56,534 nt of DNA from an uncultured Bacillota bacterium (lineage in GTDB: Bacteria; Bacillota_I; Bacilli_A; Erysipelotrichales; Coprobacillaceae), in assembly GCA_949290865.1 (NCBI GenBank), contig CASETM010000103.1, forward strand, positions 1-56,534, written 5' to 3'. A program made the position numbers and the translations under genes. Shown here piece by piece: positions 9,084-11,093 of this stretch. The notes under the pieces are model-generated. The model was given only the letters and a program-made list of their open reading frames with translations. It was not told the origin of the DNA and ran no database searches. Numbering within the stretch: position 1 is the stretch's first letter; every line of letters begins with the position of its first letter.

Positions 9084-9107
9084 AAAAAAAGCAGAATATT
9101 ATTCTGC
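9084..9107 (-). terminator. Intrinsic terminator of acpS
   Basis: GCAGAAT/ATTCTGC stem with a 3-nt loop and seven T. The 5' arm contains the acpS stop codon. Confidence 0.8.
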
Positions 9108-9413
9108 TACAATAAATGCAATAACATAATCTTTTTCATGAGAGATAGAAACGTGACATGTTTCATTAAGAATATAAGGTTTGCCCTGTGTATCATTCAA
9201 ACAGCAGATACTTTTATAGGGAACAATTCCGCATGCTTTAAAAAAGGCTTCTTTGACCGCAAAACGGCCACCTAGAAATTCTTTTTTTGCCTGAATCGTT
9301 TTTTTATGCTGGTACAATGCCAACTCTTTTTCATGAAGTATTTTATTGGCAAGATGATCCATATTTTTCAAACGATTCAGATTGCATATATCAACACCAA
9401 TCCCTTTGATCAT
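9099..9413 (-). CDS. acpS: Holo-[acyl-carrier-protein] synthase
   Basis: Transfers 4'-phosphopantetheine from CoA to a Ser of apo-ACP, activating fatty acid synthesis. The family signatures are present: GVDICNLNRL with Asp8 and FAVKEAFFKA with Glu55, the Mg2+/CoA ligands, then a short C-terminal sheet (HVSISHEKDYVIAFIVAE). At 104 aa it is somewhat shorter than the usual 115-125. It follows the charged unknown gene by two bases and is therefore probably co-translated with it. Confidence 0.95.
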   Translation of the reverse strand: MIKGIGVDICNLNRLKNMDHLANKILHEKELALYQHKKTIQAKKEFLGGRFAVKEAFFKACGIVPYKSICCLNDTQGKPYILNETCHVSISHEKDYVIAFIVAE

Positions 9414-9415
9414 AA

Positions 9416-10099
9416 CTAGTCCTTAAATTTTTTTTCATATAGGCTCATAAGTTCGTCTAGGGACATATTGTCATCGATTTCATCGATTAATGAGCCTTGT
9501 TTTTCAGTAGAATTTGTACCGAAATCCAGTTTAAATTCTCCTGTTCTTTCTTCAATGATCTTTAATTGATCCTGTTCTTCTTCAACGATTTTGGCAATAT
9601 TTCTCAAATTGTCTTCCACGGTCATAATTTCCTCTGGTGATTCATTTTTATTGTCTTCTTCCGCAGTTTCTTCCTGTGCAGATGTTAGAACAGCGTCATT
9701 ATTTGTATCTTCTTCATCTTCGTTTTCCTGATCAAAATTGCCATAAAATGGACTGATGACCTGGATTAGAGAATTATCTCTCTTCTTTGATTTTTTTACG
9801 GTTTTCTTTTTTGCTGACTGTGTTTTGGTTTTTGTTGTTTTTTCTTCAGCCAATCCAAACATTGGAGAAATGACTTCCATCATTTCGTAAGCCTTTTTTT
9901 CTACCTCAATATCAACCTGTTTAGGTTTGATTTCAGTTTTAGGTGTTTCTTTTTTTGGTTTTGGTTTTTCTTTTTTTTCTTCAAATTCTTCATCATATAT
10001 CAAAGGTTTTGAAAATTTTTCATTTCTTCTTTGTTCTACGATAGGATCTACTGTTTCAAAAATATCTTCATCATCTTTTCTAAAAAAACTTTTAAACAT
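9416..10099 (-). CDS. Unrecognised charged, probably disordered protein with two ISP-aromatic-Gly motifs
   Basis: I do not recognise this family. The 227-aa protein is soluble with no signal or membrane segment. It alternates Lys/Pro-rich and acidic low-complexity stretches that look disordered. Three islands stand out: an N-terminal MFKSFFRKDDEDIFE, two copies of a VISP-hydrophobic-aromatic-G motif (EVISPMFG at 75-82 and QVISPFYG at 113-120), and a C-terminal helix (MSLDELMSLYEKK at 211-223). The spacing suggests a scaffold with short docking motifs. It sits between the thioredoxin-like gene and acpS, with a good GAGGGGG site ahead of the ATG. Function unknown. Confidence 0.85.
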   Translation of the reverse strand: MFKSFFRKDDEDIFETVDPIVEQRRNEKFSKPLIYDEEFEEKKEKPKPKKETPKTEIKPKQVDIEVEKKAYEMMEVISPMFGLAEEKTTKTKTQSAKKKTVKKSKKRDNSLIQVISPFYGNFDQENEDEEDTNNDAVLTSAQEETAEEDNKNESPEEIMTVEDNLRNIAKIVEEEQDQLKIIEERTGEFKLDFGTNSTEKQGSLIDEIDDNMSLDELMSLYEKKFKD

Positions 10100-10126: not shown

Positions 10127-10444
10127 TTATAATGATTCTATAAATGCTTCAATTTCTTCTCTGGTTTTTCTCAGTTTGCTGACAAATCTGCCAGTTTCTT
10201 TACCATTTTCAAAAGCAACAAATGAAGGGATTCCCATGATATCTAGTTCTTTGCATAAATCAATCATTTCATCACGATCAATAACATAAAAAGTATACTG
10301 ATCATATTTGTCAACGACTTCACCGATAAATGGTTTGATAAATATGCAGTCAGGACACCATGATGCAGTGAATAAAAAGATTGCTTTTCCTTTAATTGCA
10401 TTTTGGTACTCTTCCAAAGTATGTATTTCAGTAAATTTATCCAT
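10127..10444 (-). CDS. Thioredoxin-like protein with CPDC active site
   Basis: 105-aa cytoplasmic thioredoxin fold: FLFTASWCPDC with redox Cys30 and Cys33, the cis-Pro in MGIPSFVAFENGK, and the final helix. CPDC is a known variant of CGPC in small thioredoxin-like proteins such as the YtpP group; substrates cannot be deduced. The start at 10444 follows GGAGG, which overlaps the trmB end by eight bases, so the two genes are likely coupled. Confidence 0.88.
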   Translation of the reverse strand: MDKFTEIHTLEEYQNAIKGKAIFLFTASWCPDCIFIKPFIGEVVDKYDQYTFYVIDRDEMIDLCKELDIMGIPSFVAFENGKETGRFVSKLRKTREEIEAFIESL

Positions 10445-11093
10445 TCTTTTTTCCTCCATAACTTACAATCATTTTATATATAGGACCATTGACAGAAAAT
10501 TTCTTTTCATATTCTGTCATGACATTATTTTCCATTTCTGGAGAATGATGCAGATCCAGACTTACGTACTCCAGATTCATTGGATATTGGTTAACAGAAA
10601 CAAGAGAATATTCAAATAACCCCCTGTTATCTGTTTTAAATTCGATCTGACCGTTGTCGATCAGAATATTTTTATAGACGTGAAGAAATGCATGAGATGT
10701 CAATCTTCGTTTGGCATGTCTTTTTTTAGGCCAGGGATCACTGAAATTCAGATAAATGTGATCAACTTCATTTTTTGCAAATATATCATTTAATTGAATG
10801 GCATCATAATGCATCAGTTTTAGATTATTGAGTTTTTCTTTCTGGTTGATCTTATTAATTGCTGCTGCAATAACACTTGGAAACTTTTCTATGCCAATAA
10901 AATTAATATCGGGATTTCTTCGTGCCATTTCATACATAAAATCGCCTTTTCCCATACCAATTTCAATATGCAGCGGATGCTGCTGTTCAAAAACATCTTT
11001 AAACTTACCTTTATGGCTGACAGGATCGAGAATAACCAGCTCACTGTTTTCTGCCATAATATCATATGCTTTGGGATTATTTCTTAATCTCAC
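10437..11093 (-). CDS. trmB: tRNA (guanine-N7-)-methyltransferase TrmB
   Basis: SAM-dependent enzyme that makes m7G at position 46 of tRNA. Typical motifs are MRLRNNPKA at the N-terminus, the SAM-binding IEIGMGKGDF, the signature FSDPWPKKRHAKRRL and the C-terminal TEYEKKF. The length of 218 aa is normal. The start codon is GTG after a strong GAGGAGG site. Confidence 0.96.
   Translation of the reverse strand: MRLRNNPKAYDIMAENSELVILDPVSHKGKFKDVFEQQHPLHIEIGMGKGDFMYEMARRNPDINFIGIEKFPSVIAAAINKINQKEKLNNLKLMHYDAIQLNDIFAKNEVDHIYLNFSDPWPKKRHAKRRLTSHAFLHVYKNILIDNGQIEFKTDNRGLFEYSLVSVNQYPMNLEYVSLDLHHSPEMENNVMTEYEKKFSVNGPIYKMIVSYGGKKNG

Follow-up and report, generated by a model that had tools for sequence, protein, structure and literature searches.

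A conserved tandem-motif protein at the sftA position in Coprobacillaceae and its relatives, a probable motor-less counterpart of the SftA N-terminal arm

What can be the function of a small, strongly charged protein that has no Pfam or NCBIfam match above the cut-off and carries the same short motif twice? Such a protein is encoded in the stretch of DNA analysed here (56,534 nucleotides from an uncultured bacterium of the Coprobacillaceae, order Erysipelotrichales; "the window"), next to a gene read as acpS. A preliminary description of this locus regarded it as a possible undescribed scaffold. In our study the question was approached by comparing the gene, its neighbours and its motif across the order and with the DNA translocases of related bacteria.

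The gene and its tandem motif

Positions 9416-10099 of the minus strand hold an open reading frame of 227 amino acids, with an ATG at 10099 and its stop at 9416-9418; reading on the plus strand of the same interval is interrupted by many stops. The features of the gene and its surroundings are as follows.

9416..10099, minus strand: putative motor-less protein of the SftA-arm type, 227 aa (open reading frame and family alignments)
10076..10099, minus strand: MFKSFFRK at the N-terminus, which may form a short helix that binds the membrane (weak in the window protein, clearer in the sister family)
9983..10036, minus strand: EQRRNEKFSKPLIYDEEF block, residues 22-39 (invariant columns in the family alignment; hhalign)
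9854..9877, minus strand: motif 1, EVISPMFG, residues 75-82, an SPxxG of the SftA type (alignments, hhalign)
9740..9763, minus strand: motif 2, QVISPFYG, residues 113-120, second copy of SPxxG (alignments)
9521..9619, minus strand: conserved block VEDNLRNIAKIVEEEQDQLKIIEERTGEFKLDF, residues 161-193, in the window's own family only
9419..9493, minus strand: C-terminal block SLIDEIDDNMSLDELMSLYEKKFKD, residues 203-227, of which the SLDEL part is common to the sister family
10127..10459, minus strand: thioredoxin-like gene (trx), a relative of the gene in the ytpP position at sftA loci
10437..11093, minus strand: trmB, conserved upstream neighbour
9099..9413, minus strand: acpS (named from sequence reading and the preliminary description), downstream neighbour in the window family only, murC standing there in the sister family

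The two blocks EVISPMFG and QVISPFYG had been singled out before, and the coordinates then given for the gene are right. The remainder of the protein is rich in charge (K, E and D make up 40.5% of residues), and its AlphaFold model (20 homologues), which is of low confidence with a mean pLDDT of 59.8, is mostly coil with predicted helices at residues 161-175 and 214-226, in agreement with the earlier picture of a disordered chain with a C-terminal helix. Searches of Pfam and NCBIfam returned only chance matches to the window protein, none above the cut-off, and the 20 homologues likewise had only chance matches below the cut-off in Pfam. Neither the FtsK/SpoIIIE motor (PF01580) nor the SepF domain (PF04472) was matched in the Pfam search of the protein, and no transmembrane segment was apparent when its sequence was read by eye. 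SftA itself reportedly possesses an N-terminal amphipathic membrane helix. The model of the sister family has a predicted helix at residues 3-16, with a mean pLDDT of 78 over the first ten residues. The N-terminal hydrophobic moment was no better than that of shuffles in most window-family sequences (Eisenberg and Kyte-Doolittle scales), and amphipathicity as a shared feature was not supported by this comparison for most sequences of either the window family or the SftA set.

VISP.[FY]G did not occur, not even singly, in 200,000 shuffles of the window protein. When the 2.33 Mb genome was searched at the DNA level with a degenerate pattern encoding [VI]-[ILFM]-S-P-x-[FY]-G, three places matched, two of them in this gene; a reversed-pattern control likewise gave three. 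The gene itself is real and conserved. It was matched in 41 of the 43 genomes of the window's own family, the two others (G020 and G023) being draft assemblies of one genus, and the named relatives that possess it (32 loci) include Faecalibacillus, Thomasclavelia, Massilimicrobiota, Kandleria and Sharpea. In one single-contig relative (G001:C1:2420570-2421168) the gene is divided between two frames and interrupted by stops, as a result of either sequencing error or decay. The protein alone as query gave matches in 112 of 294 genomes of the order, and a 20-row profile in 168 of 196. Both motifs are present in all 30 family proteins read, a set in which reading frames were kept only if they contained SP..G, and two SP..G motifs also occur in 20 out of 20 proteins of a sister family, distant homologues of the same order whose loci were picked from among the profile matches. 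Since that profile is itself motif-strong, this carries some selection towards the motifs; the shared locus of these homologues (see below) is independent of it. In an alignment of 34 proteins from both families (hereafter ISP proteins, i.e., members of the tandem-motif family of the window gene) six columns alone are invariant, S78, P79, G82, S116, P117 and G120; the rest of the alignment is free to vary, which marks the tandem motif as the core of the protein. Neither of the two outcomes named in the preliminary description as refuting it, loss of the motif in orthologues or absence of the gene from close relatives, was observed.

The sftA position and the arm of the translocase

In the window family trmB and trx lie upstream at 30 of 30 loci and acpS downstream at 29 of 30, while a ytpR-type gene stands between trx and the ISP gene at 17 of the 30; at the window locus trx directly adjoins the gene and acpS, two bases away, is found where murC would stand. 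The order in the sister family is trmB, then trx and/or a ytpR-type tRNA_bind gene or another gene, then the ISP gene, murC and DUF948, with trmB at 18 of 20 loci and murC also at 18 of 20. Single-motif proteins adjoin murC in family f10 (L222) and trmB at four loci of family f12 (L124, L225, L230, L233). Anoxybacillus has the order thioredoxin, DUF1444, ytpR, an FtsK-type translocase, nicotinate phosphoribosyltransferase and murC; Listeria has the same order without the extra gene before murC, and in families f9 and f13 five genomes have the translocase between trx and murC. The position between ytpP/ytpR and murC is what we take to be the sftA slot, from the gene order of B. subtilis. Judged from these gene orders, the orthologue group of the window gene occupies the sftA slot, and acpS is a lineage-specific neighbour. 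Two replicons deserve mention in their own right. In Anoxybacillus amylolyticus (L180) the record that carries the core ytpP-ytpR-sftA-murC block, with an IscB gene just upstream, is 258 kb long and labelled as a plasmid; it may be a chromid or mislabelled. On a 628 kb replicon of Rossellomorea sp. AcN35-11 (L181) an SftA-like translocase with IPSPTHG lies outside the murC locus, near genes for a penicillin-binding protein and methyltransferases.

A class-wide profile search gave weak matches in frames of 700 aa that proved to be FtsK-type translocases lacking transmembrane segments, with EFISPIFG or RFVSPIFG near their N-terminus. Among 57 translocase reading frames, a non-random set that included examples from Bacillales and Lactobacillales and in which 30 loci were taken as the top matches to a single translocase with the motif, SP..G precedes the motor in 38 of the 44 without transmembrane segments (SftA type) and occurs in one of the 13 with such segments (FtsK/SpoIIIE type). 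This last case, a B. velezensis protein, has it inside a membrane segment and is taken as chance. Three of the six exceptions of the SftA type differ, by eye, at one position, i.e., L144 (SSLWG), L165 (STYYG) and L184 (SPVYA); L163, L166 and L170 are without any. It was also observed that L163, L165 and L166 (all f17) and L170 (f5) have no clear SPxxG even though SepF is present in their families.

In the arms of Bacillales and f9 translocases SPxxG is preceded by a block of the type KFRFPLIPDD or EKFIKPLINDE, whose counterpart in the window protein is EKFSKPLIYDEE. Hence both elements by which we define the arm from the sequences read, KFxxPLIxD and VxSPxxG, are present in the window protein. 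In an hhalign comparison of the window-family alignment with 18 SftA N-termini the two elements were aligned together at a probability of 91.4 (E 9.1e-7). When the sister family was added to the alignment, only the first motif was aligned (probability 29, E 5.8e-4) because the PLI block is not kept in that family. An HMM of the SftA N-termini gave 29 of the 34 ISP proteins a score higher than any of 1,700 shuffles (14 of 14 in the window family and, for the sister family, 15 of 20); the converse comparison, with the family HMM on SftA arms, was weaker. It is thus very probable that the window protein is related to the N-terminal arm of SftA, a homology for which short motifs and synteny are the evidence. 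The preliminary description of the protein as undescribed therefore stands for the stand-alone protein, which is absent from the family libraries searched; it does not stand for the module, which is known from the SftA arm.

The genome of the window encodes one PF01580 protein, elsewhere, of 760 aa with five predicted transmembrane segments and no motif (L128), and each of the 22 genomes of the same order that were listed has a single FtsK match at a strict threshold. These lineages would thus have a membrane FtsK together with a free arm of the SftA type. With Bacillales as outgroup, loss of the motor is tentatively favoured over a later fusion of the arm to a motor.

Candidate partners at the Z-ring and competing explanations

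Short conserved motifs in a disordered chain had been proposed to dock partners, and the sequences support such a putative role. Recruitment of SftA is said to be supported by SepF. SepF matches were found in 225 of 296 genomes of the class sample, including the window's own (G000:C23), and in every one of the motif-bearing genomes checked (72 of 72, i.e., 36 of 36 with a motif-bearing SftA arm and 36 of 36 with an ISP protein in the same order); these genomes are kin and the counts are not independent tests. One genome (G062) lacks both a SepF and an ISP match. SepF is also present without a detected motif in families f5, f7 and f17, so that SepF does not require the motif. FtsA was considered as a conserved partner and judged less likely, since a match to its family (PF14450) is absent from 24 of the 36 genomes with a motif-bearing SftA and 9 of the 36 with an ISP protein (33 of the 72, counts again from related genomes); it is therefore unlikely to be the general receptor. 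As a separate observation, a match to the FtsA family is missing from 10 of the 26 genomes of the sister family, and the six PF14450 matches with listed frames in that family, of 328-343 aa, are read as MreB-size proteins and not FtsA; the sister family may thus be without FtsA and anchor its Z-ring through SepF alone. A passage in PMC11790237 describes SftA as attached to the membrane and bound to the Z-ring with the support of SepF and FtsA, and a passage in PMC5357621 has the FtsZ ring recruiting SftA despite the absence of an integral membrane domain. We infer that the ring of SepF and FtsZ is where the tandem motif docks, with SepF as the best candidate partner, FtsZ as the second and FtsA as a less likely one; docking on SepF specifically is put forward tentatively, at slightly less than an even chance.

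Taking together the shared collinear elements, the genomic slot, the tandem motif and the lack of a motor, we consider it probable, on the basis of sequence and synteny, that the gene product corresponds to the N-terminal arm of SftA, a soluble septum-associated translocase, but stands alone and has no motor; we further infer that its SPxxG motifs dock on the Z-ring as a bivalent tether. The arm would have persisted at the sftA locus where the only FtsK of a lineage is membrane-anchored. Its SPxxG peptides would attach the protein to the Z-ring, most likely via SepF; two copies on one flexible chain would form the bivalent tether, which may tune SepF/FtsZ assembly or the timing of constriction, and the family-specific C-terminal helices may bind another partner. 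The "scaffold" proposed earlier is accordingly better put as a putative Z-ring- or SepF-docking arm without a motor.

The closest competitor accepts the likeness to the SftA arm and has SPxxG bind FtsZ or another part of the divisome instead of SepF. Recruitment of SftA by the Z-ring, as stated in the cited passage of PMC5357621, would suit it, and SepF without the motif in several families weakens an exclusive link with SepF; the naming of both SepF and FtsA as supports in the passage of PMC11790237 speaks against it, and we regard it as rather unlikely. Less likely still is a general disordered scaffold that came to resemble SftA by convergence, a common docking peptide having been gained independently at a shared locus. 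That the motif can arise elsewhere is indicated by family f12, where a membrane-anchored protein of other architecture also carries it, but the genomic slot is identical across several lineages and hhalign found a second collinear element in common. An accessory role in envelope or lipid synthesis, tied to AcpS or MurC, could be read from the two-base spacing to acpS in the window and from murC adjoining the gene in relatives. The neighbour varies by family, however, acpS standing at nearly all window-family loci where the sister family mostly has murC, whereas the trmB/trx/ytpR side is retained, as is the motif. This explanation is highly improbable, and the view of the preliminary description, that nothing in the protein suggests lipid synthesis, is supported.

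Family f12 was found to possess two kinds of protein with the motif. One is cytosolic, with [IV]ISP[IV]YGILDKNY or similar and a C-terminal LFDLIDSMYE that resembles the C-terminus of the window protein. The other is a charged protein anchored by a transmembrane segment, in which [IV]ISP-x-[FY]-G occurs once and in most cases close to the C-terminus (L123, L223, L226, L227, L228, L229); the one such protein scanned had a sub-threshold FtsL_2 match (E 7.6e-4), and it is possible that this carrier is a divisome membrane protein. The existence of this second carrier suggests a reusable docking peptide. The motif-pattern matches examined, a part of those in families f4, f5, f6, f7, f10, f17 and f18, revealed no convincing disordered arm. 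Literature searches with the motif as text (five-letter variants) listed no paper that, judged by its entry, concerned SftA or cell division, and SftA was unmentioned among the matches listed for Erysipelotrichia or Turicibacter. A bolder and more doubtful version of the preferred reading would be that SPxxG is an undescribed divisome-docking peptide, that in Erysipelotrichales-type lineages and their neighbours the targeting arm of the translocase outlived its motor as a bivalent crosslinker of the Z-ring through SepF, which would give the SftA arm a role in division independent of the motor, and that the membrane protein of f12, with its different architecture, acquired the peptide.

Loss or excess of SftA affects division, yet SftA is not required for it. 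The motor-less-arm reading suggests that the arm has a task of its own at the division site, and conservation of a version without a motor throughout the order implies that the arm is worth retaining by itself. The reading also bears on how SftA reaches the division site, names a motif that can be mutated in both B. subtilis SftA and the ISP proteins, and offers a possible function for a hypothetical protein that most genomes of this gut-dwelling order encode.

Comparison with known systems

The nearest known system is SftA (YtpS), the septum-associated FtsK-like translocase of Bacillus, compared here through the proteins of Anoxybacillus (WP_066327727.1) and Listeria (WP_014600875.1). Its arm has a block of the KFRFPLIPDD type followed by VPSPVYG in Anoxybacillus and VPSPVYA in Listeria; the elements of the window protein are collinear with these, EQRRNEKFSKPLIYDEEF corresponding to the KF(R/I)xPLIxDD of SftA N-termini. 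SftA is without transmembrane segments, none being apparent by eye in the window protein either, and like the group of the window gene it is encoded at a ytpP/ytpR ... murC locus. The window protein differs in having no C-terminal FtsK motor and gamma domain, in its length of only 227 aa, in carrying SPxxG twice instead of once, and in its extra predicted C-terminal helices. The membrane-anchored translocases FtsK and SpoIIIE have transmembrane segments and a motor and lack SPxxG; no similarity to the window protein was seen, and a protein of this type resides with it in the same genome. SepF, finally, is a cytosolic division protein with a reported supporting role in the recruitment of SftA, and it co-occurs with the motif; the window protein itself has no SepF domain.
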